Origin: Acidobacteriota bacterium
Lineage (GTDB): Bacteria > Acidobacteriota > Terriglobia > UBA7540
Length of the DNA stretch: 64,000 nt
Assembly: GCA_004298155.1 (NCBI GenBank)
Contig: SCRD01000007.1
Coordinates: 186,001 to 250,000 of the forward strand
Direction: 5' to 3'
Shown piece after piece: positions 15,551-56,374 of the stretch. How positions within the stretch are numbered: position 1 is the stretch's first letter; each line of letters begins with the position of its first letter. Both the position numbers and the translations under genes were made by a program. Under the pieces are notes generated by a model. The model was not told the origin of the DNA. It did no database searches and was given only the letters and a program-made list of their open reading frames with translations.

Positions 15551-15568
15551 CGGCGGGTTTACCCCGCC
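15547..15568 (+). repeat. REP-like palindrome (type B)
   Basis: GTAGCGGCGGGTTTACCCCGCC, identical to 9962-9983 and overlapping the TAG of ADOP 5. Confidence 0.7.
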
Positions 15569-15601
15569 ATTGTTGATTTGTGATTTGCGATTGAGTGAGT
15601 A

Positions 15602-15761: not shown

Positions 15762-15917
15762 ATGGGCAATCTGATTCAAGATTTAAAGTACGGCCTGAGC
15801 CAGCCGGGGCCCGTATCAAAGAATGGCAGACTCAACACATATCTAGGCTACATTCCAAACATCACCCGAAAATGGGACGTTTGGGATTTTGGCTGTATTT
15901 TAGCAGCGATTCAATAA
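15762..15917 (+). pseudogene. Truncated ADOP gene: leader fused to unrelated DNA
   Basis: The ATG at 15762 follows a normal leader repeat and reads 'MGNLIQDLKYGLSQPGP', clearly the ADOP start (compare [11 protein letters not shown]). After about 12 codons, near 15800, all resemblance ends. The frame runs through unrelated sequence to a TAA at 15915-15917, giving 51 residues. DNA right of the breakpoint is markedly AT-rich (about 15890-16000). The rest of the permease is absent, so a deletion or recombination removed it. A short chimeric peptide could still be translated because the ribosome binding site is intact, but no function is implied. Confidence 0.75.
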
Positions 15918-16079
15918 CTATCTTGTTATCAATATATTATAATGATTACTATTCATGCCAAACCATTTGCGGACAAAAAGTTGTTCAAAATACGAACACT
16001 GGGTAAAAATTGCGTTCGTCTATCGTAGCCGGCTAGTGTCCTTTTCGCTTTCAGGGTAAGATAGAGACGGTAACGTGCC

Positions 16080-29100: not shown

Positions 29101-30857
29101 TTCAGCGGGTGAGCCATCGTTCCGATAAGCTTATAAGCAGTATCCCGGGGCAGGCGAGTGTCCGAATCGAGCGTAATCACGTACCGAATCCCGCGCAAAA
29201 TGGAGAGATCGCCAACTTTTACCGGGAAGTTATCCTCTTCACCAAGGAGTAGCTTGTTCAGATCGAGTAACTTACCCCTTTTTCTCTCCCACCCCATCCA
29301 TCTGTTTTCTTGCGGGTTGTAGACACGACGACGGTGGAAGTGGAAGAAGCCGCCCTGACGGTCACCGGCGTACTTCCCGTTTAGCTGCTTAACAAGAGAA
29401 CTGCACAACTCTACCAGGTCATCGTGGTCGTCGACGGGTTTCGATGTGTCGGGTGAATCGGTCAGCAGAGCGAAGTGCAGATTGGGGTCGCGGTTACCCA
29501 GGTAGCGGACCTCGAGAGATTCGACAATATGCCGAACCTCCGTTTCGTTGAGCAGCAAAGAGGGAACCACAACAAGGGCCGAGAACTCGGCCGGAATACC
29601 ACCGGAGAAGTCCAGCCTCGGAAGCCGGCGTGGCGGCACAAGCCGGACGGTCAAGTGATTCATCAGACCAACCGCGGCCTGGCTTGCAGGAATCAGTAAG
29701 AGCAAACCTGGAATGAGAGGGATCACCGTACCCAGATGCCCAAGCAGAAGGAAGACCGCAACCAGTGTTGTGAGCTCAACCCCCGCAACGTAAAAAACTT
29801 CCGGCCATTCCAGGATGATGTCCTTTATTTTCCTCAGCAGCGAAGGACGATAGCCGATGATCCTCTTCATCTTCAGTGCGCCCTGTTCCGCCAGGTAATA
29901 TCCGACATCGCTTCGGCGGCCTATGGCACGCTGATTCACTCCCCATTTTCGATCCCTGGCTTTCCGCGCGCAAAGAATGGCTCCCTTGGCAACATCGGTT
30001 TCACTTAACTTCGTGTACCGAACCAGATCGGACACTGCGTTGCGATAAAGATCGCGGCTTTCAAAGTCCATCCAGGGATATGCGCCGGAGGGATCTGACC
30101 GAAGAATATGGTCGACCACACAATTTGCTTCGAAAAACTCCTTCCACTCCATCTGGGAAATTTCATGAAGGCTGGTTATTATTGTCGAGGGAAGGGCATG
30201 GTGAATTTCCGGAGCAGTGCTTCCCGATTCCGAACCGGCTATAAATGCTCCAATCGCAATGGAAAGCTGTTCCAGCAATACGAACTCGAGCAGAGGCTTC
30301 AGTGCCCAGAGTTCCCGGATATTCAGAGCTGTCACCTGTTGGACTCCGGCGACGTACTCCCCAAGAGTTTCATCTTCGAACTTGAACTCCGCCGCGTGCA
30401 GGAAGCGATTTGCGACCTGGTAGGCGCGCGGGACAATTTCCCTTTCATTCGGTGCGGGTTGCAGGCTGGGCAAATCACGCATCGATTTGAGCGCATCCCG
30501 AACTTCTTTTGAAACGCCGCGCAGAAAGCGCGCGTTGTCATGAATCCAGCGCTGTTGCTCAGTGACAGGTTGTTCTTCCGGAGGTGCTTCCTTCAGGGAC
30601 AGTACAGTTCGCTCAATAGCCCTCTGGGCCTTCTTCCACCTTAGCTTGAGGACCTTGGGACGCTTCAAAATGCCGGCGGTAACCCACTTTCGAGCTTCGC
30701 GAGTGCCGAGCGCCCGCAACCATTCATTCCTAAGTTCATCCGGCATTTCTTTGACCAGCTCCCCTTTGTTCAAGGGAATCTCGATATCGCTGTGGCCGTT
30801 GCCTGCCGCCGGAGCATTCCGGCAGTTATGAGAGTGCTCATCGAAAATTCGGGCCAT
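26181..30857 (-). CDS. Cyclic beta-1,2-glucan synthase-like protein lacking the C-terminal phosphorylase region
   Basis: This large inner-membrane protein (1558 residues) resembles NdvB/ChvB/Cgs. The N-terminal 350 residues are soluble, then membrane segments (about 360-410) lead into a GT84-type glycosyltransferase with 'ITLDSDTRLPRDTAY' (about residue 562) and 'HRWARGDWQILRW' (about 716). More membrane segments follow (about 760-930). The glycoamylase-like domain that carries out cyclisation in this family lies near 1290-1510 ('SFYDLLGSEARIATFIAIA', 'SWSGTMFEYLMPLLWM', 'CWMAHHQGMSLLAV'). It stops 48 residues after that domain. Known Cgs proteins are about 2800 residues and continue with a GH94-type domain that controls chain length; this part is absent and no frame remnant follows. 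It is co-transcribed with the ABC exporter upstream (20-base gap). Confidence 0.9.
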   Translation of the reverse strand: MARIFDEHSHNCRNAPAAGNGHSDIEIPLNKGELVKEMPDELRNEWLRALGTREARKWVTAGILKRPKVLKLRWKKAQRAIERTVLSLKEAPPEEQPVTEQQRWIHDNARFLRGVSKEVRDALKSMRDLPSLQPAPNEREIVPRAYQVANRFLHAAEFKFEDETLGEYVAGVQQVTALNIRELWALKPLLEFVLLEQLSIAIGAFIAGSESGSTAPEIHHALPSTIITSLHEISQMEWKEFFEANCVVDHILRSDPSGAYPWMDFESRDLYRNAVSDLVRYTKLSETDVAKGAILCARKARDRKWGVNQRAIGRRSDVGYYLAEQGALKMKRIIGYRPSLLRKIKDIILEWPEVFYVAGVELTTLVAVFLLLGHLGTVIPLIPGLLLLIPASQAAVGLMNHLTVRLVPPRRLPRLDFSGGIPAEFSALVVVPSLLLNETEVRHIVESLEVRYLGNRDPNLHFALLTDSPDTSKPVDDHDDLVELCSSLVKQLNGKYAGDRQGGFFHFHRRRVYNPQENRWMGWERKRGKLLDLNKLLLGEEDNFPVKVGDLSILRGIRYVITLDSDTRLPRDTAYKLIGTMAHPLNRAVIDRKTNTVVEGYGILQPRVGISIESARKSRLASIYSGETGFDIYTQAVSDVYQDLFGEGSFTGKGIYEVETFQRVLGNRFPSNALLSHDLIEGVYGRAGLASDIEVIDDYPSHFSAYCRRMHRWARGDWQILRWILPSVPDYFGRRVPNPITLLSRWKIFDNLRRSLIELNLFLLLLAGWFVFPGGAFYWTAITLALLLAPTYVEALISLAQVRGNDNLKGFLKERANVFVTGHLQVFVMLVFLPHKAFVMLDAIARTLTRLVITHRNLLEWETAAEAEVGARKKTAVDTYLALTPGFALVAGISLAILRPSALPAAAPILGLWLLVGVFTKWINQPPRRRKKSLEEQDVAFLRLASLATWRYFREFSNAGVHFLIPDRVQEEPPAVVAIMSPTNLGMLLNARLAAHHLGYLTLAEFVQQTEETLSSAERLPRFNGHFLNWYDVETLEPLPPKFVSTVDSGNLAACLWTLKQACLGLIQAPLQSRETWQGIRDHILIVQQLVNQKVFTPEVMLHIHELGLRAGRIGENAADWIEALHDLQNQVQEALAVLSRIKAEAESNNRPPADDLRWWLAETLARIVNMRSSVQTLTPWLLPGYRHLQLSGPGQDASLDSLPAMVQMLEKQLDHLPLQAQDGGATNAMKSLRTGLRVSLQFAAELTTRLRHLAVEADELLKEMDFRFLYDQKKKLLRIGYDVDADRRAKSFYDLLGSEARIATFIAIAKGDIRQEAWFHLGRAQALEQGKATLVSWSGTMFEYLMPLLWMRSYSGTMLDEGMHSAVVCQQKYARRRKVPWGISEAAFSARDHKGIYQYAAFGLPGLAVDSNALGDIVIAPYASFLALQVDPTSATRNLKLMWESGWFGRFGFYESADYSKRHAPGAKDYELIRCWMAHHQGMSLLAVCNLISQSSLQKWFHHEPRVMATELLLHEKVPFAAPEEPGPVNSWQRSPEVSTTENPLRSAVPEPAHESG

Positions 30858-43634: not shown

Positions 43635-44327
43635 ATGGAACGCAAGAAGGCCTGGCTCTCATGGAGCAGCGGGAAGGACAGCGCCTGGTGTCTTGAAACT
43701 GTTCGCAGGCAGGGCGAGTACGACGTGGCAGCTCTGCTAACCACAGTGAACGCCGAGCACAAGCGCGTCGCCATGCATGCGGTCCGCGAATCGCTGCTGC
43801 AGGCGCAGGCAGAGAGTGCCGGGCTGCCCCTTGTCACGGTCTCCATTCCTAACCCCTGCCCGAATGCTGACTACGAAAAGGCCATGGCCGCAGCATTCGA
43901 GAAGGCGAGTGCTGGGGGCATCACCCATATTATTTTTGGCGACCTCTTCCTCGAAGATATCCGCCGCTACCGGGAGAACCAACTGGCCGGTACAGGAATC
44001 ACGCCGGTTTTCCCCCTTTGGGGACTCGACACGCGTCAGCTTGCCAGCCAGATGGTGGGGGCAGGGCTGCGGGCAGTGCTCACCTGCATTGATCCTGGGA
44101 AACTTGATCGATCATTTGCGGGGTGCCAGTTTGACGCCAATTTGTTGGCCGATCTACCGAATAATGTGGATCCCTGCGGCGAAAACGGCGAGTTTCACAC
44201 CTTTGCCTTCCGCGGTCCAATGTTTCTGGCGCCTATCGAAGTTGAACGAGGCGCCGTAGTAGAACGGGATGGGTTTATCTTTGCCGACGTCCTTCCCAGG
44301 CAGCAGATTCAGTTTCCTAACCGGTAA
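43635..44327 (+). CDS. Diphthine-ammonia-ligase-like ATP pyrophosphatase (DUF71 family)
   Basis: This 230-residue protein of the adenine nucleotide alpha hydrolase superfamily has the PP-loop 'SWSSGKDSAWCLETVRR', followed by 'YDVAALLTTVN'. The 'IIFGDLFLEDIRRYRENQL' and 'VDPCGENGEFHTFAF' motifs define the Dph6/DUF71 group. Bacteria do not make diphthamide, so a different amidation or adenylation reaction is likely; some relatives act in B12 side-chain amide metabolism. GGGAGA precedes the ATG. It is divergent from the efflux operon and stands alone. Confidence 0.9.
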   Translation: MERKKAWLSWSSGKDSAWCLETVRRQGEYDVAALLTTVNAEHKRVAMHAVRESLLQAQAESAGLPLVTVSIPNPCPNADYEKAMAAAFEKASAGGITHIIFGDLFLEDIRRYRENQLAGTGITPVFPLWGLDTRQLASQMVGAGLRAVLTCIDPGKLDRSFAGCQFDANLLADLPNNVDPCGENGEFHTFAFRGPMFLAPIEVERGAVVERDGFIFADVLPRQQIQFPNR

Positions 44328-44640: not shown

Positions 44641-45217
44641 GATATAAAGAGGTTTCAAGTTGAAAATTGTCGTGCTTAATGAAGTCGTGGGAGAGAGCTA
44701 TAGGGCTGCGCACGAAAATATTCCAACGCCTCCCGGGTGCCTTGACGGTAGGTTGGCAAAGGGGCCGTTTAGGCTTTTAATTGCAGTAGTTTTGATAGCC
44801 ATTGAGTTACGAAAGGCGAAACCATTTTCGCCCTCCGGTTGACGGCCAGCGGGGGCGAAAATTCGCCTGCCCTTCGCTGGCGCTTGGACGGGATTTGGAA
44901 CGCTGAAGCACGTCACCGGGCAAGTTGGAACACCATTTGCTTGATGAGGTGGTGTGGAGAGTTGGCTGTGAAGTGCGCGATTGCAGCCATGTCAAGCCGC
45001 CGAAATCGGATGGCGCGAAACAGAGATCAGGAATTGACATTGTTTCCCTGCTCGTGGTGACGAGCCGCGAACGCGAGAACAGAGAAGCGTTCGGTAATCA
45101 GATCAGGCACCGCCACGATGGATATGGGAAACGACGAATGACCCGAGGCCAGCGTCCCCCTCCCCACGGCACTCGGGGCTCAGCCTGGGTTGCTTTTGCA
45201 ACCCAGGCTATTTTTTT
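44641..45217 (+). ncRNA. Candidate structured non-coding RNA ending at a strong terminator
   Basis: No convincing protein gene is seen on either strand. The short frame from TTG 44660 (60 residues, after a GAGG) matches nothing I know. Stems are dense: GGCGAAA-CCAT-TTTCGCC (44815-44832), and GCCAGCG (44845-44851) with CGCTGGC (44875-44881) enclosing GGCGA/TCGCC. CCCGAG and CTCGGG pair around 45141-45178. The stretch ends in a 12-bp terminator stem plus T-run at 45182-45217 that serves only rightward transcripts, yet no rightward gene precedes it for 850 bases. An AT-rich region lies at its left edge. It could instead be a decayed gene or intron relic. Confidence 0.4.
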
Positions 45218-46205
45218 GCCCAATTGTTGTTCCTTCGTCCGCAGCCTCCGGCGCTTTCAGCAACGGGCTGGACGGTGCCACCAGTACACGGAGCCCCCTC
45301 GGCAGAAGGATGACTTCCAGCGGCAGCATCCCCAGGGGCTCGCCGTCAATCTCGATCTGCGCCGCGCCCTTGGCTTCGGCAATGATGCGCGCGGCTTCAA
45401 AGTGGCGGACTTTCGGATGCGAGTAGACCTTCCCTGAATAGAGCATGGAGATGCTGCTGAGTAGTTTCAGGGCCCCGTCGTAGCCGATAATCGTCACGTC
45501 GAGAACGCCATCGTTGGGGACAGCCGCCGGGCAGGGGCGCATGCCTCCACCATGGAACTGGCCGTTGCCAACGGCCACGTTGGTAATAAAGAACGGCAGG
45601 CGGGTTGAGCTACCATCCAGAGAAAGGTCCACCTGGCGACCGCGATAGCTGAGGAACGTCTTCACGGTTGCCCAGAAGAACGCCGCCTTTCCGCCGAACG
45701 TGCTCATGAAATTGTTTGATTGAGCGGCCACGTGTCCGCCCATTCCAAAGCTGAGCAGATTCACAAAATACCGGCTGGCCTGGCCGCCGCTGGCCTGAAA
45801 GGTTGCCTTGCCTATATCAATTTGCGCGGGAACGCCAGTAGCGAGAATTTCGATGGCTCCGGCAGCGTCAGCGGGAATTTCCAGAGTTCGCCGAAAATCA
45901 CCTCCGGTACCGAATGGCAAAATTCCGAGCACTGCTTCCGGCCGGACCATCTGGTCCCCGTCAAAAAAACCGTTGGCAACTTCATTGACAGTACCGTCGC
46001 CGCCGACAGCGATTATCAAATCAAAGCCTTCGCGCAGCAGTCCGCGTGCTATAGCGATTCCCGCACCGCGTTTGTCGGTGAAGCGGGTGACTACACGGCC
46101 CATCCGGTTTTCGAGCAGGGCGGCAAGCTGCGGCCACTGCCGGGCGGTCTTGCCTCCGGCAGAATTCGGGTTGACGACAGCAGCAATTTTTACCGGCTTG
46201 CTCAT
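45180..46205 (-). CDS. Diacylglycerol kinase-family lipid kinase (DagK/YegS type)
   Basis: This 341-residue protein has the DAGK catalytic domain: 'AAVVNPNSAGGKTARQWP' at the N-terminus, ATP-binding 'IIAVGGDGTVNEVANGFF', and 'LGILPFGTGGDFRRTL'. The C-terminal beta domain has 'VAVGNGQFHGGGMRPCPAAVPNDGVLDVTI' and 'IEIDGEPLGMLPLEVILLPRGL'. It phosphorylates a diacylglycerol-like lipid or sphingoid/alkylglycerol analogue; the substrate is not readable. The final residues ('GCKSNPG') are encoded by a terminator stem and look like read-through, so the ancestral stop may have been lost. Its ATG overlaps the epimerase stop by 4 bases. It is the last gene of the lipid operon. Confidence 0.92.
   Translation of the reverse strand: MSKPVKIAAVVNPNSAGGKTARQWPQLAALLENRMGRVVTRFTDKRGAGIAIARGLLREGFDLIIAVGGDGTVNEVANGFFDGDQMVRPEAVLGILPFGTGGDFRRTLEIPADAAGAIEILATGVPAQIDIGKATFQASGGQASRYFVNLLSFGMGGHVAAQSNNFMSTFGGKAAFFWATVKTFLSYRGRQVDLSLDGSSTRLPFFITNVAVGNGQFHGGGMRPCPAAVPNDGVLDVTIIGYDGALKLLSSISMLYSGKVYSHPKVRHFEAARIIAEAKGAAQIEIDGEPLGMLPLEVILLPRGLRVLVAPSSPLLKAPEAADEGTTIGQKNSLGCKSNPG
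45182..45217 (+). terminator. Strong rho-independent terminator, rightward
   Basis: AGCCTGGGTTGC (45182-45193), loop TTTT, GCAACCCAGGCT (45198-45209), then ATTTTTTT. The 12-bp stem is perfect. On the other strand the T-run would precede the stem, so it does not terminate the leftward lipid operon. The last codons of the lipid-kinase gene run through it. Confidence 0.85.
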
Positions 46206-47221
46206 ACGACAGGTGGGAGCTGACCGCTTCGATACAGCCGCAGGTGAACGTCCTCGACGGTGTCCTTGAGCGTTTCATCGGGCTCGCGCGTCTGGAAGCC
46301 AAGCTCGTTGCGGGCCTTAGTGGAATCGCAATACCAATAGCAGGCTGACATTTTGACCGAGGCGTCGTCCAGCTCGATTTTCTTTCCAAGCAGCGGATAA
46401 ACCACCCGCATGGCCCGCGCTCCCCACAGAGAAACCTCAAAAGGCGGCTCCATCGATGGGGGCGCTTTGCCGGAGATTTCCGCTACCTTTTCAATCAACT
46501 GACGGAACGTCCAGTTGACATTGCCCATCAGATACCGCTCGCCGGGCCTTCCCTTATCCATGGCCGATGTCAACCCCTGGGCAACATCGCGGACATCCAC
46601 AAAATTCAGCCCGCCTTTGGGAATCGCCTTGATCTCTCCCTGGAGGAAAAGCGCCACATCGCGCGTGGAGGAATTGCGTTCATCACCCATGCCAAGAAGC
46701 AGGCTGGGGTTGACGACTACCGCCTTCAATCCGGCGCGGGCGTGATAGTCGAGCGCCAGTTTTTCCGCAAAAATCTTGCTCAAATAGTAGGGCCACTCTC
46801 CAACCACCTCATTCTTGTATCCTGATGTTTCATCATAAACTGTGGGGGTTGTTCCAACCGCGATGGTGCCGGAACTGGATACCACGACTATCTTGCTCAC
46901 CTTGTGTTTCAGGGCGGCCTCGCAGACGTTGCGAGTGCCTTCGATATGCGTCTCGTAGAGGAGGTCCTGGTCCTTCGAGTCGCGCGAGACGACCCCCGCG
47001 AGGTGATAGATCTGCGAAACACCTTTGGCTGCTTGTTCCACCTGTTGGCGGCTTAAGATGTCGCCGTGGACCACTTCCACCGCCGGGTCCTGCTCCCAGG
47101 GAGACAGCCCGCGGCAAAACACGCGCAGACGAGGGGACTTTTGTTGGGGCTTCAGAATCTCCACCAGGTGCTTTCCCAGAAAGCCTGTCGCTCCGGTAAC
47201 AAGAATGGTCTTCGTTGCCAT
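46202..47221 (-). CDS. NAD-dependent epimerase/dehydratase (3-beta-HSD/HpnA-like extended SDR)
   Basis: This 339-residue extended short-chain dehydrogenase has dinucleotide motif 'TGATGFLGKHLVEIL', 'IYHLAGVVSRD', 'VSSSGTIAVG' and the catalytic Tyr-Lys pair in 'YYLSKIFAEKLAL', followed by 'NPSLLLGMGD' and 'NFVDVRDVAQGL'. The group includes 3-beta-hydroxysteroid dehydrogenases, dihydroflavonol reductases and hopanoid-associated HpnA. In this lipid operon it may reduce or oxidise a beta-hydroxy or keto intermediate. The ATG at 47221 shares one base with the stop of the LarA-like gene (TGATG); a TTG one codon earlier is less likely. Confidence 0.9.
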   Translation of the reverse strand: MATKTILVTGATGFLGKHLVEILKPQQKSPRLRVFCRGLSPWEQDPAVEVVHGDILSRQQVEQAAKGVSQIYHLAGVVSRDSKDQDLLYETHIEGTRNVCEAALKHKVSKIVVVSSSGTIAVGTTPTVYDETSGYKNEVVGEWPYYLSKIFAEKLALDYHARAGLKAVVVNPSLLLGMGDERNSSTRDVALFLQGEIKAIPKGGLNFVDVRDVAQGLTSAMDKGRPGERYLMGNVNWTFRQLIEKVAEISGKAPPSMEPPFEVSLWGARAMRVVYPLLGKKIELDDASVKMSACYWYCDSTKARNELGFQTREPDETLKDTVEDVHLRLYRSGQLPPVV

Positions 47222-48912
47222 CAAATGCTCTCGGGCGTTCCCTGCACATCCGCCATCAGGATGGGCGCAAAGTGCATCATGGTGATGCTAGGCTTGTGGC
47301 CCACGTGGCTCTGGGCCATTTCGAGGGCCGCTTTCATGTTCTGGGCGGTTTCCCACCCCATGATTCTGGCTGCCCGAGCCGATTCCGCTCCCACCACGAT
47401 TACCTTGCCTGTGTGCGCGCGTCCGTTTTCTCCCCAATACCACATGTAAAACGGGTGTACGCCATGGTAGGCGTGGCCGGTGCGGTACATTCGGATGTAG
47501 TCGGGGTCATGGGCAAACTGCTGTTCATATTTCCGCTGTAATTCCATCGAATCGCGCGTTTCCGGCAAAATCCGGTTAAAGAACTCGATGTAAGAAGGAT
47601 GGTGCAACGGATCGAATTCATTATAAAGCGGATGGGTGATGATCAGCACGCCGTTCTTCTTTACAACAGGCATGCCACGGTACATGTTGTGGAAATAACC
47701 GAGCGCCATCACCTGCACCAGCAGGGGATTCAGAATCGAGTTTACGTTGTAGGGTGATATGAAAGGAATGCCGTAAACCACCACGTCCGACTGGCCTTCA
47801 AGCGGCGTGCAATACTGCGCATAGCAATAGGCCAGTGTTTTGGCATGAGTGGGCAGCGTGGCGCCGGCATGGACCGCGATCATCTGATAGGGCGCCGGAA
47901 TTGCAAACAGGACTTTCCTCCTGGCAGCCCGGGGGAGCAGGCCCAGGCCCTTGCGCGTGGTTTCAAACATGAAACGGTCGACACCCGTCCAGCGGTCTTC
48001 GTTCTTCGTGAAAAACGCCATGGCAGGCTCAAACATGCGATTGTTCAGCACCGTCTCAATGTGAAAAACCTTCAGGTGCCGGTTGACCACTTCCATGATG
48101 CGGTCGCAGGAGTGGTTCATGGCAGACTGCGTGTGGTCAAAGTAGGAATTGCTGGCCAGGATGGTCTGTGGGGTGTGGTGCGCCTGTAGGGTGGCGTAAT
48201 CGCACAATCCCACGCTCACGGACTTGCTTCCTCCATCCATGGGGACCAGGTTGATGTTGGCGTAAATCAGCAAGTCGGATTCTGCCGCCCTCCGGTTGAT
48301 GCGGACCCTTTCGCCGATTTCGGTGGTCCCCAGGTCTACCATGCCGCCAGGAGCATCGCCGTCGTGGTTGTAGAGGCGGTCGGGGTGGAATTTTGAAAAG
48401 ACCTGGTTGCCGACCGCATGCCGGATTTCTGCCGCGGTCATGCGCCGATGGTAGGATGTTGCCACGATGATGTGAACGTCTTCAACACCCTTTTCGGCCA
48501 GCAGTTTCAGCACAATCGCCAGGACAGATTCGCGGACGTCCGGCCGTTTCATCTTCGGGAGGGGCAGGGAAATGTCGTCGATGGCGATGGTCACTTTCAT
48601 CCCTGGCCGAAGCAGTGCCGAGAGAGGCTCCATTTGTTCGGGGTGGTCGATGGCGTATCGGATGGCAGCGTCGCGGTCCTTGAGGCCGGCAATGGTGGGA
48701 TTGGGATAGAGGACCCGTGTGCCCGCCGGCATCCTGACGGAGAGAAGGTCCTCGCCGTACCACATCAGCCGGTCCGCCGAGCGGCCCTCGAGTTGCACGA
48801 CGCAGCCCTCGTGTGAAAGGATTGCGTTGCGTCCTACCGCGTTGGGTGTGGGATCGCCGAACTCAAACGCCGGCGGCCCCGCCGGGTGATGGTTCCCGGC
48901 GTCGTTTGACAT
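47221..48912 (-). CDS. LarA-like (DUF2088) nickel-pincer racemase-family protein
   Basis: This 563-residue protein resembles lactate racemase LarA. Visible parallels are 'TIAIDDISLPLPKM' (region of the LarA D-x-T-R motif), H155 in 'SYHRRMTAAEIRHAVG' (like LarA 'HRPMT', H108), and K230 in 'PMDGGSKSVSVGL' (like the Lys that anchors the nickel-pincer cofactor). H246 stands exactly 16 residues after that Lys, as the Ni-ligand His does in LarA. The second catalytic His of LarA, ten residues before the Lys, has no counterpart. The protein is about 130 residues longer than LarA. No larB/C/E cofactor genes are nearby. It overlaps the phosphatase gene by 50 bases. A 2-hydroxyacid or sugar-acid substrate is a guess. 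Confidence 0.82.
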   Translation of the reverse strand: MSNDAGNHHPAGPPAFEFGDPTPNAVGRNAILSHEGCVVQLEGRSADRLMWYGEDLLSVRMPAGTRVLYPNPTIAGLKDRDAAIRYAIDHPEQMEPLSALLRPGMKVTIAIDDISLPLPKMKRPDVRESVLAIVLKLLAEKGVEDVHIIVATSYHRRMTAAEIRHAVGNQVFSKFHPDRLYNHDGDAPGGMVDLGTTEIGERVRINRRAAESDLLIYANINLVPMDGGSKSVSVGLCDYATLQAHHTPQTILASNSYFDHTQSAMNHSCDRIMEVVNRHLKVFHIETVLNNRMFEPAMAFFTKNEDRWTGVDRFMFETTRKGLGLLPRAARRKVLFAIPAPYQMIAVHAGATLPTHAKTLAYCYAQYCTPLEGQSDVVVYGIPFISPYNVNSILNPLLVQVMALGYFHNMYRGMPVVKKNGVLIITHPLYNEFDPLHHPSYIEFFNRILPETRDSMELQRKYEQQFAHDPDYIRMYRTGHAYHGVHPFYMWYWGENGRAHTGKVIVVGAESARAARIMGWETAQNMKAALEMAQSHVGHKPSITMMHFAPILMADVQGTPESI

Positions 48913-49591
48913 CTGAGCCTCTTTTCAAGTCCAGAATGGTCCAGCCGCGCTCCAAGGCCGCACGCCTGAGCCTGCGGTCAGGATTGACAGCGGCCGGAAC
49001 GCCCACAGCTTCAAGCATGGGTAGGTCCGAAAAACTGTCCGAGTAAGCCTTGCACTGTTTCATTTCCGTGCCGTGCTCGCGGCAAAGCCTTTCCATGGCA
49101 CGGACTTTTTCTTTTTCGGCGATCAGCGGAGCTTCCACTTCTCCCGTTGCGATCCCATCGCGGAAAACCAGGCAGTTCGAGATCACAGATTGAAAACCAA
49201 GGTACCGGATTACTTCATTCAGAGCAACATCCAGTTCGCCGGACACCAGCACAGGCAGATATCCCTGCCTGCGGTCTTCTTCAATCAGGGCCTGCGCGTC
49301 AGGATAAATGGACGGCAGAATCTTTTCATCAAAGATCTGCCGCGACTGGGCCCGCAGCACCTGCTCGCGCATCCCGCGATATTCGCGAAAGAACACCTCG
49401 TTGAAGCGCCGCCTCGATCTTGACTCCAGGGCCAGCCAGAATGGGATGCTCAGCAGCAGCTTTGAGAATTTCAAAACCGCCCGCGGCCTCGACGGCTGGC
49501 GCAGGGTGAAATATGCGTATCTCCGGACGATATTGCCTGAAGTCAAAGTTCCGTCGAAGTCGTAAAAAGCCAGGAGTTGGTTTGGGCTCAT
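48863..49591 (-). CDS. HAD-IB family phosphatase (SerB-like)
   Basis: This 242-residue hydrolase has motif I 'FYDFDGTLTSG' (nucleophile D11, acid D13), motif II 'LPVLVSGELDVAL', the Lys region 'IAEKEKVRAMERL' and motif IV 'CKAYSDSFSDLPML'. HAD-IB enzymes remove phosphate from phosphoserine, lysophosphatidic acid-like and related substrates and often appear fused to, or beside, PlsC-type acyltransferases. In this operon a phosphatidate- or lysophosphatidate-type phosphatase role is reasonable. Its last 50 bases overlap the LarA-like start, so the two are translationally coupled. Confidence 0.92.
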   Translation of the reverse strand: MSPNQLLAFYDFDGTLTSGNIVRRYAYFTLRQPSRPRAVLKFSKLLLSIPFWLALESRSRRRFNEVFFREYRGMREQVLRAQSRQIFDEKILPSIYPDAQALIEEDRRQGYLPVLVSGELDVALNEVIRYLGFQSVISNCLVFRDGIATGEVEAPLIAEKEKVRAMERLCREHGTEMKQCKAYSDSFSDLPMLEAVGVPAAVNPDRRLRRAALERGWTILDLKRGSDVKRRREPSPGGAAGV

Positions 49592-49634: not shown

Positions 49635-50006
49635 TTATCTCGACATCGGCTCCAGCTTGGTTGAAGTCGCGCCGCCACTCTGCATACCGTATAAATCAAT
49701 AATCTCGTAGCACGCCTCGAAAAGTTTGTCGCGGAATCTCCTGCTGACTACCTCTAATTTCTTGTCGGCTTCTCGCAATGCGTCGCGATTCCACTCGAGC
49801 CGCTCGGAACTAATGGGCAACGTCCTCAATTCTTGCAGATACTCATCGAACACGGGATAGGACAACTCTTTGTACGGACGCAACCAAGAGAGAACGCGCG
49901 AAACACGGATACAACCGACCGGCAAACCGACCTGATAAGTGACAATCGCTCGCGCCGCGCTAACTAGCTTCTTCAGGTATGATACTGATTTTGGTGGATT
50001 AGCCAT
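49635..50006 (-). CDS. Small unknown protein in the lipid operon
   Basis: This protein of about 123 residues is not recognised. It is mostly helical and charged ('SYLKKLVSAARAIVTYQVGLP', 'SWLRPYKELSYPVFDEYLQEL', 'DKKLEVVSRRFRDKLFEACYEI'), with no signal peptide and no membrane segment. The ATG at 50006 (MANPPKSVS) with CAGG upstream is chosen; the frame also extends to 50078 but would then overlap plsY. It lies between plsY and the phosphatase with short gaps on the same strand, so it is probably part of the operon. An adaptor or regulatory role is only a guess. Confidence 0.65.
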   Translation of the reverse strand: MANPPKSVSYLKKLVSAARAIVTYQVGLPVGCIRVSRVLSWLRPYKELSYPVFDEYLQELRTLPISSERLEWNRDALREADKKLEVVSRRFRDKLFEACYEIIDLYGMQSGGATSTKLEPMSR

Positions 50007-50067
50007 CAGCACCTGCCAGGGGTTCAGACCGCTATTGCCTGTGCTCTCCAGAATTGTTGCTGCCCAC

Positions 50068-50667
50068 CTATGCCGCACTGCGCCGCGAGAGGAGGTTCTG
50101 GAAATTCTTCTTGTGCCTCCAGCCGAGAAAGAGCGTCAGTAATGCGGCGTAGAATGCATCCTGCGGGCTGACGAAGGCGAGCATCAGAATAACAAACAGC
50201 GCCCAGGTGCACATGGAAGATGTTGCGCCTGCTTCTGGCCATTTCAGGCGGCTGAAAGCCAATCGCGCCACCACAAAAAACGCCAGCGCCACTCCGGCCC
50301 AAAAGGGATAAAGTTTCAACATTACGCCTGCGGAAGTCGCGATTCCCTTGCCTCCGTTAAATTTCAAAAAAGGCGAGAAACAATGTCCCAGAATTGCTCC
50401 GAAACCGAAAAGCCAGCCTAGCGCCACTCCGTGCGCCCCATGGCTGGCCAGCCACACGGCAAAATACCCCTTTCCCAGATCTCCGGCAAGTGTCAACACT
50501 GCGCGCAACTTGTTCACGCGCAGGACGTTGTTAAATCCGGGGTTTCCGGACCCCACAGAGCGGATGTCAACGCCGCTACCCATCATGGCCAGGACTGCAA
50601 AGGGTATGGACCCCAACAGAAAGCAGACAACGAAACGGATGATGATTCCCAGTGTACTTGCCGGCAT
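50068..50667 (-). CDS. plsY: Glycerol-3-phosphate acyltransferase PlsY-like
   Basis: This 199-residue integral membrane enzyme moves an acyl group from acyl phosphate to glycerol 3-phosphate. Family motifs are 'IRSVGSGNPGFNNVLR' (GSGNxGxxN motif 1), 'AGDLGKGYFAVWLA' and 'FLKFNGGKGIATSAGVML' (phosphate-binding NGGKG). Five or so membrane segments are visible. The ATG at 50667 (MPASTLGIII) begins directly with the first membrane helix; the open frame further left overlaps the ligase gene and is not coding. Here it may serve the specialised lipid pathway and not bulk phospholipid synthesis. Confidence 0.9.
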   Translation of the reverse strand: MPASTLGIIIRFVVCFLLGSIPFAVLAMMGSGVDIRSVGSGNPGFNNVLRVNKLRAVLTLAGDLGKGYFAVWLASHGAHGVALGWLFGFGAILGHCFSPFLKFNGGKGIATSAGVMLKLYPFWAGVALAFFVVARLAFSRLKWPEAGATSSMCTWALFVILMLAFVSPQDAFYAALLTLFLGWRHKKNFQNLLSRRSAA

Positions 50668-50701
50668 ATCGAAGTGTTTTTTCGGTCTTCCCCGATTTCG
50701 G

Positions 50702-53497
50702 TCACGCGCACAGCCTGGCAATCGCTTCCCGGACCTGCTCCCGCAGCACTGCCAGCTCGCGCACGTCGTTAATCTGGATGCTGATGGGCTCGCCCACCGC
50801 AATCTTTGCTTCCTCGCGCCCCGGCATCCGCGTGCCTAAAGAAAGTATAGTGGAAGTTCCGCGGACTCCGAGAGGATAAATGGGACTGCCGGTCTGGACT
50901 GCCGCATCCAGAGCATCCAGCCGGAACCGGTTGAGATGCGCAGGCACCATGGGGGGCCCATCAGAAAGCACGATCACCGAATGGCCGTCTTCCAACCCCT
51001 GGCGAATACGCTGGCGCAGCGTGCCGCCGGGCGGAAGGCTGGATATGCGCAGTGGCGGCAGCACTAAGGGCCGCAGCAGAAATGCCACCGCGCCGGGAAG
51101 AGAATCGAGTGCCCCGGAATCTGAAAACCGCACGGGCATTGGCAGAAGAGCGGCCAGTGCCAGGGCGTCAACGGCGCCGGCACGGTTGGCCATCAGGACG
51201 GCCGGCCGCCCCGGTCGAATACGTTCGTTACCCTCCAGGACAACCTTGTGACCGAGCAGCCTCAAAAGAGTTCTCGAAACGGCTGCAACGATTGCGCATC
51301 TGGCGCCAGGGCCAGGGACGGCACGCGCCAGCAGGCCGCCACCGCCCGCCACCACAACCAGCAGCGCCTGCGAAAACTTACGCTGAAGCCACCGGCCAGC
51401 GCCCCTCAGGCCCAGTTGAATCCAGGCGCCCAGATTTTCCCACCACAGGCGCAGGATCTGAAGCCAGGGCGGGCGGCGATTGAGTTCAAGTTCTCCGCGC
51501 TCATAGAGCAGCCGCGTCTCATTGCGCCGGATCTTGCCGCTCGAGGTCTTGGGAATGCTCTGCGGCGCCACCAGTTCAACTTTGTCCGGCGGAATGCCAA
51601 CTGCCAGCCCCACCCGCTCAATCACCTCCGCCTCGATACGGTCCAGGTCCTCCTTGTTGGCCACGCGGGTTTCCGCCACCACCACCAGCTGCTCAGTGCC
51701 CAGTTCGGGATCGCGCCTGCCAAAGGCAGCCACGCAGCCGCGCCGCACTTCGGGGACTTCGGCGGCGGCAAGCTCGACTTCCTGTGGAACGATGTTGCGG
51801 CCGGACTTGATGATCAGGTCCTTGGCCCGGCCCGTAATGTGGATCTCGCCGTTAGCCCAGTAACCGAGATCGCCTGAATCCATCCAGCCATCCTCTGTGG
51901 AGACAGCCGCCGTCGCTTTGGGGTTGCGGAAATATCCCGCCGTCTTGGATGGTCCCCGGAAAAGTACTTTGCCCTGGACGCGCTCACCGAGTGGGTTGCC
52001 GTCATGGTCGATCACTTTGATTTCGTGTCCCGGCAGGGCCTTACCATTGGCCACAAAGCGCAGAGCACTGGAATCTTCCCGCCCGGCGGGGACGGCTTTG
52101 CCTTCGGCTTCGAAGGCGTCGCGGCGGATGCGGTCAATTGCCGGGCGGCGGTTGATGGGCGGAAACGCCAAGGCCACGGAAGATTCGGCCAGGCCGTAAC
52201 AGGGCACAAAACTTTCTGCGCGAAAGCCGTAGGGCTTGAATCGCTTTTCAAAGCGTTCCAGCGTGTCGGGCAGCACGGCCTCGCCGGCGTTGATGGCAAC
52301 GCGCCAGGAGCTGAGATCAAGCCCTTCGACGGCGCTGTCTGGAACCTTTCGGGCGCAGAGTTCGTAGGAGAAATTCGGGGCAGGACAGAGCGTGCCGCCG
52401 GAATCATGCAGCGCCCACAGCCATTTTTCCGGCCGGCTGAGAAAGGCCAGTGGAGATAGAATCGTAATGGGCAGGGCATAATAGACGCTGTAGAGCCAGG
52501 AGCCGATCAGGCCCATGTCATGATAGAGGGGCAGCCAGCTCACCACGATGTCGGAGGGTTGCACATTGACCGCCCACCCGATGCCGCGTATATTGGCCAG
52601 CAAGTTCGATTGAGTGAGCACCACGCCCTTGGGATCGCCCGTGCTGCCGGAAGTGTATTGGATGAACGCGGCTTCGGCGGCTTCGATGGTTCCCGGGTGC
52701 AGCCGCGCGCCGCTCCCGGCGAGATCTTCCACGGTGGTGACTCCCAGAATGCTGGGCAGATTCAGCCGGAGCAATTCCGAAACCCGCCGGGCGGCCTCGA
52801 AACTGATCAGAAATCTAACTTCCGCATTGCGAAGAATCCCCACCTGCCGCCTCACGTATTCCTCAATCTTGTCCGGCCGCGCGGGAGGGTAAATCGGCAC
52901 GGCGATTCCGCCCGCCAGCATGACGCCGAAAAAGGCATAGAAAAACTGCGGCGAGGTGGGCAGCATGATGGCCACCGTTTCATTCCGCCGCAAACCTCTG
53001 GAAACCAGCCCGGCCGCCACATCTGAGGCGGTGCCTAACAGCTTGCCATAGCTGATGTCTTCACCGGAATTGCCTTCCAGAACGTGGGCCTGCACGCGCT
53101 CGGCATCCACCTCCGCATGCTTGCGCAAAACTTCAATCAGCGTGCGCGCTGAATCCGGCGGGGGCGGCGCAACACGCGCGGGCTGCCTTATGGTGTAACG
53201 TTGGGACGCTGCGGCGGCTTCTTCTTCACCGCCCGCAATGGCGCGTACCCAATCGCCGGGCGTGCCGGCTTCCTCGGTAATGCGGTCGGGCAGCCGGACG
53301 TTGAAGTGAGCTTCCGTGCGGACCAGCAACTCCACCATCTCCAGGCTTCCCAGGCCCAGGTCCCGCTCCAGTGAAGAGCCCAGCGTGACGGATTCCGCAG
53401 CGCGCAGCGATCCCAGCTCGGTTAGAAGCTCGCGCACAATCTGGAGCATCTGCTCTTCAAGCTGGGCCGCATCGATTTGTCGGGGCGTGGTTGACAT
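50702..53497 (-). CDS. ACP - fatty-acyl-AMP ligase - acyltransferase-like fusion
   Basis: This 931-residue three-part protein starts with an acyl carrier domain (residues about 8-88, phosphopantetheine Ser51 in 'LGLGSLEMVELL'). A FAAL/FadD32-type adenylating domain follows (about 115-680) with 'IQYTSGSTGDPKGVVLT', 'SWLPLYHDMGLIGSWL', 'YGLAESSVALAF', 'DSGDLGYWANGEIHITGRAKDLII' and 'PKTSSGKIRRNET'. The C-terminal stretch (about 690-931) resembles PlsC acyltransferases. Its catalytic HX4D motif reads 'NRAGAVD', with Arg in place of His, and the 'FPEGTRS' motif reads 'LSDGPPM', while 'IYPLGVRG' remains. The enzyme probably activates a fatty acid and loads it on its own carrier domain; the last domain may bind acyl groups without transferring them. 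Confidence 0.93.
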   Translation of the reverse strand: MSTTPRQIDAAQLEEQMLQIVRELLTELGSLRAAESVTLGSSLERDLGLGSLEMVELLVRTEAHFNVRLPDRITEEAGTPGDWVRAIAGGEEEAAAASQRYTIRQPARVAPPPPDSARTLIEVLRKHAEVDAERVQAHVLEGNSGEDISYGKLLGTASDVAAGLVSRGLRRNETVAIMLPTSPQFFYAFFGVMLAGGIAVPIYPPARPDKIEEYVRRQVGILRNAEVRFLISFEAARRVSELLRLNLPSILGVTTVEDLAGSGARLHPGTIEAAEAAFIQYTSGSTGDPKGVVLTQSNLLANIRGIGWAVNVQPSDIVVSWLPLYHDMGLIGSWLYSVYYALPITILSPLAFLSRPEKWLWALHDSGGTLCPAPNFSYELCARKVPDSAVEGLDLSSWRVAINAGEAVLPDTLERFEKRFKPYGFRAESFVPCYGLAESSVALAFPPINRRPAIDRIRRDAFEAEGKAVPAGREDSSALRFVANGKALPGHEIKVIDHDGNPLGERVQGKVLFRGPSKTAGYFRNPKATAAVSTEDGWMDSGDLGYWANGEIHITGRAKDLIIKSGRNIVPQEVELAAAEVPEVRRGCVAAFGRRDPELGTEQLVVVAETRVANKEDLDRIEAEVIERVGLAVGIPPDKVELVAPQSIPKTSSGKIRRNETRLLYERGELELNRRPPWLQILRLWWENLGAWIQLGLRGAGRWLQRKFSQALLVVVAGGGGLLARAVPGPGARCAIVAAVSRTLLRLLGHKVVLEGNERIRPGRPAVLMANRAGAVDALALAALLPMPVRFSDSGALDSLPGAVAFLLRPLVLPPLRISSLPPGGTLRQRIRQGLEDGHSVIVLSDGPPMVPAHLNRFRLDALDAAVQTGSPIYPLGVRGTSTILSLGTRMPGREEAKIAVGEPISIQINDVRELAVLREQVREAIARLCA

Positions 53498-53632: not shown

Positions 53633-55210
53633 TCAAATCTTAAATGACCACTCCTTTACGGCCTCCGGCTGGATCCACTTTTCTATCCCTGCAATCTGAT
53701 GATGGATCCAGTAGTTCTTCCAGTGGATCTGTTCCGGGTCCCAGGGCAGCAGCAATCTGTCTTTCTCCGAAAGCCTCTGGTAGGCGGTGCGGATGTTTTC
53801 CGATTCAAAAACGTAGCGGTTGTGCAGGATGAACGGCAGATACTGGTCAAGGGTCTGCTCCCGGAACCGCACCTGCAAACCCAAAGTGCGAAGCGTGCTT
53901 TGCCAGCCGGCGAGGGATTCTTTCCCCGGCAGCCCTGCGCGTTTCACGGCGCTGTGCATCCGGTCGAGCATAGCCTGCGCCCGTCGAATGCGCTTCTCAA
54001 GTTTTTGCCGGCGCGCCCGCGCATGCTCAATAGAAATGAACTTCGCCCGGCCGCGCGATGCGGCAATGCCAATAGACAACCTTCCGGTACCGTTCCTGCC
54101 GGCCCTCTTTCGAGCTTCCTCCCGCAGAAGATTGACCAGCGGCCCGAGCTTGATGGGATTCACGTCTGCCGTGCCCAGCTGATAGACGCTGTCCGCGCGG
54201 CCATCGAGCAGCAGCGCGCCCACGGCCAGAATCGCCGCCGCGACCAGGTCGACGGGAACGACTTCCAGCGGAGTGTTGCGTCGCACGGGCCAGTGCTTCA
54301 GCCCGCCCATGGCCATCAGCACCAGCGGGGCAGCGGTCCTTCCACCTTCAATCCAGCCGGGAAAGGGGAACCGCAAGGCGCTTTCAACAATGGCTGGGCG
54401 CACAATGGACCAATCCAGTTTTTTCTCGCGAGCGATAAGTTGCTCACCCAGGCTCTTTGAATAGGTATAGGTGTTGACCCATCCCCAATGTTCGGCGCGC
54501 CGCCTGCCAAGCGCCACCAGTTTCTGCGTGATCTCTTTGGAGCGTACCTGCGGCCCTTGCGTTTCTTCGGGTCCTTCTGATTCGGTGATCAGGCGCACCT
54601 GCTCGCGGCAATAGGCGAGCTCAGTAAGGGCGTTGAACGCGTTGTCCCCTGCGCCCTTGCGGTGCGGATAGAAGCCGAGGATGGGCTCCGTTTCTTCGAT
54701 CAGGCCGTTGGCCTCGCCTGAGACAAAGCAAGTGGAAACGTGCAACAGTCGCGCACCTGCGCGCCTGGCGAGTGCGATGGAATTCTCCACGCCGTCAACA
54801 TTTGCCTGCAACGAAGCATCGACGGGAGGGAAGAACTCCACTTTGCCGGCGCAATTAATGATGAGCTTCACCCGCGCTACGATTTCATGGAGCGCCCGCT
54901 CGTCGAGCCCGCAATCGGGCTGGCTGAGTTCGGCGGGCCAGATACTGACTCTTTCCCGGACAAAGGTCTCGCTGCGCGTCCCGAGCAGAGGCGCCATTGC
55001 GGGCGAATCCATAACCTCTGTGTTGAAGCGTTCCACCGCGGAAAAGCCCCGGGCCGGCCGCAGCAACACGTGGATGTGCTTTACGTCAGGATAGCGTTCC
55101 AGCAGCATCGCCAGGATCACTTTGCCCAGGAAGCCGTTTCCTCCGGTCAATAGGATTTCGTTTTCCCGGAATAATTGTCCAGCGTCCGTCAATTGTGGTT
55201 GTTGTGCCAT
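53633..55210 (-). CDS. Fatty acyl reductase (thioester-reductase-type extended SDR)
   Basis: This 525-residue protein resembles fatty acyl-CoA/ACP reductases. It has NADP motif 'LLTGGNGFLGKVILAMLLERYP', 'LLRPARGFSAVERF', 'INCAGKVEFFPPVDASLQANVDGVENSI', 'LLHVSTCFVSGEANGLI' and the active Tyr-Lys in 'NTYTYSKSLGEQLI'. 'SIVRPAIVESALRFPFPGWIEG' and a helical C-terminal region with 'YVFESENIRTAYQRLSEKD' follow, as in eukaryotic FARs. It should reduce an acyl thioester to an aldehyde or alcohol. The obvious donor is the ACP domain of the next gene. The ATG at 55210 (MAQQPQ) is preferred to an upstream TTG at 55228. Confidence 0.92.
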   Translation of the reverse strand: MAQQPQLTDAGQLFRENEILLTGGNGFLGKVILAMLLERYPDVKHIHVLLRPARGFSAVERFNTEVMDSPAMAPLLGTRSETFVRERVSIWPAELSQPDCGLDERALHEIVARVKLIINCAGKVEFFPPVDASLQANVDGVENSIALARRAGARLLHVSTCFVSGEANGLIEETEPILGFYPHRKGAGDNAFNALTELAYCREQVRLITESEGPEETQGPQVRSKEITQKLVALGRRRAEHWGWVNTYTYSKSLGEQLIAREKKLDWSIVRPAIVESALRFPFPGWIEGGRTAAPLVLMAMGGLKHWPVRRNTPLEVVPVDLVAAAILAVGALLLDGRADSVYQLGTADVNPIKLGPLVNLLREEARKRAGRNGTGRLSIGIAASRGRAKFISIEHARARRQKLEKRIRRAQAMLDRMHSAVKRAGLPGKESLAGWQSTLRTLGLQVRFREQTLDQYLPFILHNRYVFESENIRTAYQRLSEKDRLLLPWDPEQIHWKNYWIHHQIAGIEKWIQPEAVKEWSFKI

Positions 55211-55289
55211 TTGCGGGCAGGAAACCAAGCCAGTATCAAGCGCGTTTCGGCCTGAATTTTTTCATGTTATCGACCGTGGCAAGCCGCTG

Positions 55290-55949
55290 TCAAGACTGGG
55301 CTACGGGTGTGACAGAGTTCCTTGAAAGCTCATCGGCCGGATGCGGCGGCGCGGCGTTGGTTTCGGTTTCCATACGCTTCGCCTCCTGGTAGGTGTGGAT
55401 CACGCGGTGGAGCACCGTCAGGTTCGAAAAGAATACAATCACCCACAGCACCGGTGCCATGCGGTCAAATAGCGCGCCAATAATGATCAGCACGACGCGC
55501 TCTGGCCGCTCAAGGAATCCCACCTTGCAAGAAGGAATCAGGTTCTCCGCCCGCGCTCTCGAATAGCTGGTCATCACCGAGCCGATCATTGCCAGCGCCA
55601 CCACCACGACGTACACAAAGCGGTTAACTCGGCCGTAATAGACCAGCAGGCCGGTCAGGAGAAACAGGTCGGAATAGCGGTCCAGCACCGAATCAAAAAA
55701 GCCCCCAAATGGCGTCACCCGGCGCGTCCGGCGAGCTACCGGGCCATCGGTCAGGTCAAATACCCCGCCCAGGATGATCGTCACGCCCGCCCAGCGGAAA
55801 TACCCGTATGCAAACAGATAAGCGGCAACCAGATTGATGGTAAAGCCGATAAACGTCAGAAAATTTGGATTTATCCCAATCTTTGAGAATGAGCGTATGA
55901 TGGCGTCATACGCATACCAGCAAACGTCGCCAATTTTCCGGGTAATCAT
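55290..55949 (-). CDS. CDP-alcohol phosphatidyltransferase
   Basis: This 219-residue membrane enzyme joins a CDP-activated lipid to an alcohol head group. The full family signature D-x2-DG-x2-AR-x8-G-x3-D-x3-D is visible in 'DLTDGPVARRTRRVTPFGGF' and the bases that follow ('DSVLDRYSD'). About six membrane segments are visible. The ATG at 55949 (MITRKIGDVCWYAYD) fits the family start; upstream codons are basic, Cys-rich and unlikely. It is the first gene of the operon. Related enzymes make phosphatidylglycerol phosphate or phosphatidylinositol phosphate, but the head group cannot be read from sequence. Confidence 0.9.
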   Translation of the reverse strand: MITRKIGDVCWYAYDAIIRSFSKIGINPNFLTFIGFTINLVAAYLFAYGYFRWAGVTIILGGVFDLTDGPVARRTRRVTPFGGFFDSVLDRYSDLFLLTGLLVYYGRVNRFVYVVVVALAMIGSVMTSYSRARAENLIPSCKVGFLERPERVVLIIIGALFDRMAPVLWVIVFFSNLTVLHRVIHTYQEAKRMETETNAAPPHPADELSRNSVTPVAQS

Positions 55950-56374
55950 TGCGCTAAATCGGCATCCGTCCGGCTGGGGGTCTCTGGTCAGGAGCTCAGA
56001 GAGAACATCACACTCCCCCGCCGTGCTCTCATGGCTGCGCCTTGCCTCACCAGCTACACAGCCAGAGGTTTTCCTCGTGAAGCGTATCTTAGCGGAAATG
56101 CCTCTGCACTGCAACCTTGAGACGGGTGAGAATTTAGAGTCCAATGTGTTCCATAAAGGTACACACGCGATCCTGAGGGAGCCCCGGGCAGCATCGATTG
56201 GAAGGTTAATGCAGTTAGTATGCCTCTCATTTACCGTGGCGGAAGCCCTGGTCCTGCCTGTTGCCTTAGCTCAGAATGGCTTCGGCCCCCCGTTCTAAAG
56301 ATTCGTCGCCCCCCCGCCACTTCCTGATACGATAGAAGAAAATACTGGCCGCCGGGGAGCGGAAAGGGATGCCC
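55950..56374. other. 425-base divergent intergenic region
   Basis: It lies between the leftward lipid operon and the rightward aldehyde dehydrogenase, so both promoters should be here. Open frames on both strands lack ribosome binding sites and familiar motifs. GAAAGG at 56362-56367 serves the dehydrogenase. No clear operator was seen. Confidence 0.5.

Follow-up and report, generated by a model that had tools for sequence, protein, structure and literature searches.

A LarA-type protein with one recognisable catalytic histidine in an ether-lipid gene cluster of an Acidobacteriota bacterium appears to be the counterpart of Myxococcus ElbC

The ether-lipid (elb) operon of Myxococcus consists of elbA, encoding an NAD epimerase; elbB, encoding a haloacid dehalogenase (HAD) family protein; elbC, described as 'of unknown function'; elbD, encoding FAR1-like, acyl-CoA synthetase (ACS), acyl carrier protein (ACP) and acyltransferase (AT) domains; and elbE, encoding another NAD epimerase (PMC9131029). 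The same review notes that in myxobacteria elbD and elbE may lie apart from elbB and elbC, and that disruption of MXAN_1676, the homolog of alkyl-dihydroxyacetonephosphate synthase (AGPS), reduced the ether lipids of Myxococcus only slightly. In the relevant part of PMC11868695 the elb cluster is named for Acidobacteria subdivision 4 only, and elbD homologs have been published for sponge Acidobacteriota as well. Here we describe a stretch of 64,000 nucleotides (hereafter the window) from an Acidobacteriota bacterium (assembly GCA_004298155.1, contig SCRD01000007.1, positions 186001-250000; contig C7 in our numbering). A LarA-type protein of the LarAH14/15/16 family, encoded within the window beside the parts of an elb operon, appears to be the counterpart of ElbC.

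A second body of work concerns the relatives of lactate racemase (LarA) and its nickel-pincer nucleotide (NPN) cofactor. Homologs lacking the second of the two catalytic histidines of LarA are already described: groups 14 and 15 have none, and group 17 has an asparagine in its place (PMC12611868). The missing histidine was therefore rejected as a novelty in itself (PMC12611868, PMC7583248). The lysine of LarASp from Streptococcus plurextorum bears NPN, and the protein also contains an unidentified 316.5 Da ligand; LarABw of Blautia wexlerae, likewise a single-histidine relative, came without cofactor when purified after co-expression (PMC12611868). Group 16 was excluded from the analysis of Desguin 2020 for non-conserved NPN and catalytic residues (PMC7583248). 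Within the open-licence literature, outside of which lie supplementary tables S1/S3 of Desguin 2020, we found neither an ether-lipid link nor an assigned function for LarAH14/15/16; there, 'elbC' occurred with 'ether lipid' in PMC9131029 only, and 'nickel-pincer' with 'ether lipid' in one archaeal annotation review only, judging by the portions available.

The window protein matched Pfam Lar_N (expectation value, E, 9.4e-38) and scored 810.3 bits against NCBIfam NF052592 (LarAH_14_15_16; equivalog; cut-off 740), for which the LarAH protein of Myxococcus locus L041 scored 852 bits. The full name of the model is 'NPN-dependent hydroxyacid isomerase, LarAH14/15/16 family'; it merges groups 14, 15 and 16 of Desguin 2020, and the window protein is placed in the merged family only. 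Since group 16 was left out by Desguin 2020, the merged label alone is not proof of NPN use. The protein is nevertheless of a known kind (LarAH14/15/16). Relatives were drawn from 80 loci, the best 80 of at least 587 confirmed matches, so that all locus counts below concern the nearest relatives. An alignment of 52 sequences was built from the window protein and 51 of these loci; L048, L074 and L089, each with a stop within the fetched stretch, and 26 further loci were left out.

An AlphaFold2 model from this alignment (mean predicted local distance difference test 92.7, predicted template modelling score 0.91) gave a LarA fold spanning predicted residues ~45-559. The nearest solved structure was holo single-histidine LarASp (Z 39.5, root-mean-square deviation 2.2 over 454 residues; Foldseek E 1.4e-35). 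LarABw came next (Z 36.2); the racemases of lactate and malate reached Z 27.8 to 30.8, and a homolog from Thermotoga maritima gave Z 23.9. At 563 amino acids (aa), as compared to 422 for the NCBIfam LarA model, the protein is indeed longer than LarA, by ~140 residues (about 130 in the preliminary description made from the sequence). A segment of some 50 residues (290-343), equal in length in all 52 aligned sequences, is extra relative to LarASp and LarABw. Within the segment, helix 328-337 is basic, with a net charge of +4 and a moment of 0.52, and helix 310-324 has a moderate amphipathic moment of 0.42; these values were not decisive for membrane binding by the segment, and the idea was set aside.

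The link to ElbC comes from Myxococcus itself. In locus L041, an epimerase gene (8225-9205) is followed by a HAD gene ending at 9960, the LarAH gene (9974-11584), an open reading frame (ORF) of 1474 aa (11581-16005) with the domains fatty acyl reductase (FAR), AMP-binding, ACP and acyltransferase, and another epimerase gene (16002-17030). This is the published order elbA-elbB-elbC-elbD-elbE, with LarAH in the place of elbC, between the HAD gene (elbB) and the FAR-ACS-ACP-AT gene (elbD). By gene order and domains within the same genus, then, the LarAH protein appears to be ElbC of the Myxococcus elb operon.

The window cluster holds the same parts: HAD, FAR, acyl ligase, ACP, PlsC-type acyltransferase and a short-chain dehydrogenase/reductase (SDR). 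Transcribed on the minus strand, its order is CDP-alcohol phosphatidyltransferase, fatty acyl reductase, ACP-ligase-acyltransferase protein, PlsY, an ORF of 147 aa, HAD phosphatase, LarAH, SDR and lipid kinase. The ORFs of HAD and LarAH overlap by 50 bases, and those of LarAH and SDR, and of SDR and kinase, by 4 each. Compared with Myxococcus elb, the order is changed, PlsY and the lipid kinase are added, and the single multidomain ElbD, fused in L041, is split in two (53633-55228 and 50702-53497), with the ACP at the N-terminus of the second part. The preliminary description of a LarA-like protein with an NPN site and one recognisable catalytic histidine in a lipid operon is borne out.

Gene order was compared across the 80 loci by taking the best match to each gene at unlimited distance; in L079, for example, the HAD match lies kilobases away. 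The order HAD-LarAH-FAR-FAAL-SDR (FAAL, fatty-acyl-AMP ligase) was found in 24 loci, and the window-type order FAR-FAAL-PlsY-HAD-LarAH-SDR-(lipid kinase), whole or partial, in 18 more. Where at least 5 kb of sequence was available on both sides (32 loci), same-strand matches were found to HAD in 31, to FAR or FAAL in 26 and to SDR in 26. Five control genes of the window, chosen from outside the core, had same-strand matches in 0, 0, 0, 1 and 1 of the 80 loci, and in at most two on either strand. That one gene set recurs in two orders, with ElbD as one gene or two, points to a functional link. The HAD gene lay less than 2 kb from LarAH in 68/80 loci, which makes HAD and LarAH the tightest pair; the ElbD link is frequent but not fixed.

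L026, L027 and L031 have the intermediate arrangement HAD-LarAH-FAR-SDR-lipid kinase-(PlsY), and their loci gave no match to FAAL-ACP-PlsC. Among Acidobacteria, L011, L012, L016 and L018 (recorded as gp13) have FAR and FAAL matches apart in Elb-type clusters, L027 (recorded as gp18) lacks a FAAL match, and the Myxococcus order is seen in L073 (recorded as gp4). Two record names may be wrong: L022 is named Acidimicrobiia, and its protein is 70% identical to that of the window, like those of Acidobacteria; L045 is named Comamonas and has Myxococcus-like proteins with the same gene order and spacing.

Active-site residues were mapped by phmmer alignment to LarASp (PDB 9q2u), with the LarASp numbering of PMC12611868. 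H115, D73, K195 and H211 of LarASp align with H155, D113, K230 and H246 of the window protein, which correspond to the first catalytic histidine, the ribose aspartate, the cofactor lysine and the nickel ligand. All four residues were invariant (52/52). The alignment confirmed what had been read from the single sequence, namely that K230 and H246 stand 16 residues apart and that H155 matches the first catalytic histidine. The fold, cofactor lysine, nickel histidine and first catalytic histidine are also common to the window protein and LarA (PDB 5huq).

The second catalytic histidine of LarA (H174) was absent from its place in the window protein. The loop that carries it lacks 4 residues that are present in a two-histidine LarA homolog of the same genome (ANI----NLVPMDGGSK versus CGPVFPHEVVGFSGGNK), the stretch from D213 to K230 numbered 18 residues in 52/52, and no histidine occurred at 213-228 in any of the 52 aligned sequences. 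The preliminary description had based the loss on the residue ten before the lysine. That residue is not histidine (I220 in the window; Ile, Val, Leu, Met, Tyr or Phe in 52/52), but because the loop is shortened by 4, counting ten residues back from the lysine is the wrong test; the statement that no second histidine lies there stands. N219, N221, V223, P224 and M225 of the shortened loop were invariant. N219 and N221 are out of register with the asparagine of the LarASp/LarABw subfamily, and the residue ten before the lysine is not asparagine. At position 229, directly before the cofactor lysine, 39 of the 52 sequences have histidine and the window protein has serine. The equivalent of LarA R75, position 116, was Leu in 35 sequences (including L116 of the window), Val in 9 and Met in 8; in LarAIp the R75-type arginine binds both the cofactor phosphate and the substrate carboxylate (PMC12611868).

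The best structural match, to LarASp and LarABw (PDB 9q2u, 9q3k, 9q3j; PMC12611868), is one of shared features with clear differences. One catalytic histidine, the NPN lysine, the nickel histidine, the aspartate and the equivalents of Tyr307 and His401 (Y388, H486) are common to all; LarAH groups 14 and 15 share the missing second histidine with the window protein. In LarASp and LarABw an asparagine replaces the second histidine, whereas in the window protein the loop is shortened; its equivalent of LarASp His306 is proline (P387) and that of Lys76 aliphatic (L116). The neighbours also differ, being sugar-metabolism genes for LarASp and LarABw and ether-lipid genes for the window protein.

In the C-domain, H306, Y307, H398 and H401 of LarASp align with P387, Y388, H483 and H486, all four invariant in the 52 sequences, and His401 is named in PMC12611868 as near ligand density. 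By this alignment H483 and H486 may face the cofactor, so that a replacement histidine is possible. Structure prediction, proposed in the preliminary description as a check on the missing histidine, yielded a LarA fold, and the alignment showed no histidine in the second-His loop; together with larB, larC and larE in the genome, neither of the two refuting outcomes named in that description was observed. These two residues could serve an ordinary NPN epimerase or racemase acting on a 2-hydroxyacid or sugar acid (a future head group), with H486 or H483 as second base. We consider such an enzyme unlikely. It would agree with the characterised LarA homologs, which racemise or epimerise 2-hydroxyacids, with the NCBI name of the family, which is of the same kind, and with a Phytophthora gluconate epimerase called 'LarAH15' and placed with GntE enzymes in a 2024 paper (PMC11770544), apparently under a different numbering. 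Against it stand the shortened loop, the replacement of the carboxylate-binding arginine by Leu, Val or Met in 52/52, the Frankia LarAH14, inactive in all 7 published assays, and the elb ether-lipid neighbourhood. None of the head-group genes in the window accompanies LarAH in the other loci (CDP-alcohol transferase, 0/80). The ordinary head-group epimerase of the preliminary description is not supported.

Cofactor genes were sought in the window genome (G000; 5.2 Mb, 29 contigs, 97.6% complete). As first described, the window has no larB, larC or larE; the preliminary description asked whether they exist elsewhere in the genome, and all three do, with profile matches over cut-off (LarC 489 bits, LarE 310, LarB 287) and the best matches to larB, larC and larE on contigs C6, C17 and C17. 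A genome without the cofactor pathway can therefore be rejected. A Dph6-like ATP pyrophosphatase in the window (43635-44327) was rejected as LarE: it matches Dph6/PAB0415-type families below cut-off, and it is on C17 that LarE scores above its cut-off. The genome encodes two more Lar_N proteins, one a two-histidine protein closest to a hexonate-epimerase model, below its cut-off, and the other above the 'group 22' cut-off.

Across 50 family-carrying genomes, selected by choice from the 80 loci, LarC was found in 49, LarE in 49 over cut-off, and LarB in 43 over cut-off or 44 at E 1e-40. Twelve of these records come from isolates. Eleven bear the names Myxococcus, Corallococcus or Pyxidicoccus; the twelfth is recorded as Comamonas but shares the gene order of Myxococcus. 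In all 12 the family member was the sole Lar_N match, and LarC and LarE were each present in 12/12 and LarB in 12, including one partial match (G158, 162 bits, under cut-off). With a sole Lar_N protein and larBCE kept, the cofactor pathway has one client among LarA-fold proteins in these isolates, although there may be NPN users of other folds. Among Acidobacteriota genomes over the NF052592 cut-off, 10/11 had LarC (G141 did not); set beside a background of 105/149 this is weak evidence, and co-occurrence with LarC within the phylum was rejected as proof.

We propose, with a probability of about 0.55, that the window protein is an ElbC-type, single-histidine nickel-pincer enzyme of a split-ElbD elb cluster that shuttles a hydride at the C2 hydroxyl of a glycerol-lipid intermediate without inversion. 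With NPN bound on K230, H155 would deprotonate a C2-type hydroxyl on a lipid intermediate built on glycerol, and C4 of the cofactor would accept the hydride. The ketone so formed would be used, and the hydride would then return to the same face or move to a neighbouring atom; one histidine would allow no free inversion of the stereocentre. Removal of phosphate from a neighbouring intermediate would fall to ElbB (HAD), and the fatty aldehyde or alcohol would come from ElbD/FAR.

A number of observations count against this proposal. No member of LarAH14/15/16 has a reported activity, cofactor or ligand, the cofactor-phosphate arginine of LarA is lost in the window protein, and group 16, dropped by Desguin 2020, is one of the three merged in its family model (PMC7583248). 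Nor does an elbC mutant appear in the elb-mutant section of the review PMC9131029. The larBCE genes of the window genome could be explained by its two other Lar_N proteins, LarC is common in Acidobacteriota in any case (the 105/149 above), and among the 50 family-carrying genomes G165 lacked LarC and LarB and G162 lacked LarB and had no LarE over cut-off. Finally, 26/80 loci had no same-strand match to FAR or FAAL, and the HAD-LarAH pair may act alone, without ElbD. Fifteen of the 26 had less than 5 kb of sequence downstream; 11 had more (L010, L028, L038, L048, L057, L060, L061, L069, L083, L085 and L087, each with at least 5 kb). The sequence of L010 ends where the window carries its FAR and FAAL genes. 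In L028, L038, L060 and L061 no lipid-synthesis gene was found among ten neighbours, which were glycosyltransferases, a tetratricopeptide repeat protein, an ATP-binding cassette protein with a LolA-like protein, a phosphoesterase, a semialdehyde dehydrogenase and three without match. The FAR and FAAL proteins of the window are 33-35% and 25-28% identical to those of the 12 isolate loci; at such identities a 30% threshold could miss clusters of this type.

Another reading is that NPN use has been lost and that the fold and some motifs are kept by a structural or regulatory partner of ElbB/ElbD. The loss of both the second histidine and the phosphate-binding arginine would fit, as would the published judgement that group 16 is an unlikely NPN user (PMC7583248) and the purification of LarABw without cofactor (PMC12611868). 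We hold this to be very improbable, given that K230, H246, H155 and D113 are invariant (52/52), that the 12 isolate genomes with this protein as sole Lar_N match retain larC and larE, and larB with one partial, and that single-histidine LarASp does carry NPN on its lysine (PMC12611868).

A further alternative is a 1,2-hydride-shift isomerase, which would pass the C2 hydride to the neighbouring carbon of a free or lipid-linked three-carbon unit, of the glyceraldehyde/dihydroxyacetone type. One base and a glycerol-lipid setting are consistent with such an enzyme, but triose isomerisation is already carried out by ordinary enzymes, and we regard it as unlikely.

The boldest reading, and a rather unlikely one, is that ElbC forms the ether bond in the elb pathway as a nickel-pincer enzyme of 'hidden redox' type and replaces AGPS. 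AGPS needs a C2 ketone on the glycerol-phosphate backbone for its reaction at C1, and S-adenosylhomocysteine hydrolase uses a bound hydride carrier to oxidise its substrate, substitute and reduce it back. In an ElbC ether synthase, the C2 hydride of 1-acyl-glycerol-3-phosphate would move to the cofactor and the C2 ketone would activate C1; a fatty alcohol provided by the reductase domain would take the place of the acyl group, and return of the hydride to the same face would give alkyl-glycerol-3-phosphate. A single histidine would suffice because nothing is inverted. The argument is one of elimination: the domains of ElbA, B, D and E are not those of ether synthases, the loss of MXAN_1676 has a minor effect and ElbC is unassigned, which leaves ElbC as a candidate. 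ElbE (SDR) could instead be an alkyl-dihydroxyacetonephosphate reductase, and this possibility competes with an ether synthase role for ElbC.

AGPS itself is an unrelated flavin adenine dinucleotide (FAD) enzyme, so that the analogy is functional only, the step being the same if ElbC is the ether synthase. No AGPS homolog was recognised in the window genome, where only two FAD-oxidase_C matches were found. These are an adjacent GlcD/GlcE-like pair, both below the NCBIfam equivalog cut-offs; the best PDB match of the GlcD-like protein was glycolate oxidase (2.5e-101), with AGPS at 1.1e-24 over part of the length. Searched against the 80 loci at E 1e-4, the GlcD-like protein had no match, while the query does find its own locus. 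A hidden AGPS in this genome was therefore rejected.

The genes of the window cluster are listed in Table 1. The PlsY start given there was assigned mechanically and falls within the gene before it; translation of PlsY probably starts deeper in the ORF. The acyltransferase match in the ACP-ligase-acyltransferase protein, at 22.3 bits, falls just below the cut-off of 23. A promoter scan found 3 promoters as compared to 4.4 expected by chance. Elsewhere in the window, five ORFs of 814 to 841 aa lie on the plus strand at 309-15550, of which the three that were scanned encode MacB/FtsX-type permeases; at 26181-30857 lies a protein of 1558 aa in which Pfam at E 1e-8 recognises a glucoamylase-like domain (1298-1505) and nothing else.

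Table 1. Coordinates of the LarA-type gene and its neighbours within the window.
Feature	Position	Strand	Remarks
YegS/DagK-type lipid kinase	45180..46205	minus	Pfam/NCBIfam; same-strand match in 14/80 loci
NAD-dependent epimerase/dehydratase-type SDR (ElbE-type)	46202..47224	minus	Pfam/NCBIfam
LarA-type protein, LarAH14/15/16 family (ElbC-type)	47221..48912	minus	563 aa, ATG start
HAD-IB phosphatase (ElbB-type)	48863..49591	minus	Pfam/NCBIfam
147 aa ORF inside the lipid operon	49635..50078	minus	weak DUF2489 match, below cut-off
PlsY-type glycerol-3-phosphate acyltransferase	50068..50802	minus	same-strand match in 16/80 loci
ACP - fatty-acyl-AMP ligase - PlsC-type acyltransferase (second part of split ElbD)	50702..53497	minus	PP-binding 30-87, AMP-binding 137-523, Acyltransferase 752-878
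Fatty acyl reductase, FAR/male-sterility type (first part of split ElbD)	53633..55228	minus	NAD_binding_4 E 6.8e-52
CDP-alcohol phosphatidyltransferase, upstream end of the same-strand run	55290..56144	minus	no match in 80 loci

Although the protein belongs to a known family, its setting appears to be new: LarAH as the apparent ElbC, an elb cluster with split ElbD in this bacterium, and larBCE kept where the family member is the sole Lar_N protein. Two questions are joined here, the role of the single-histidine LarA homologs and the formation of the elb ether bond given the small contribution of AGPS. Should ElbC use NPN, Myxococcus would offer a test of both, and the NPN cofactor would gain a role in membrane-lipid synthesis. 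If it is moreover the ether synthase, it would take over from AGPS without a flavin and would be, judged from the literature searched, the first use of NPN beyond the racemisation and epimerisation of hydroxyacids. Ether-lipid formation in Acidobacteria also bears on the branched glycerol dialkyl glycerol tetraether lipids, proxies for temperature and pH whose pathway is described as unclear (PMC11868695).

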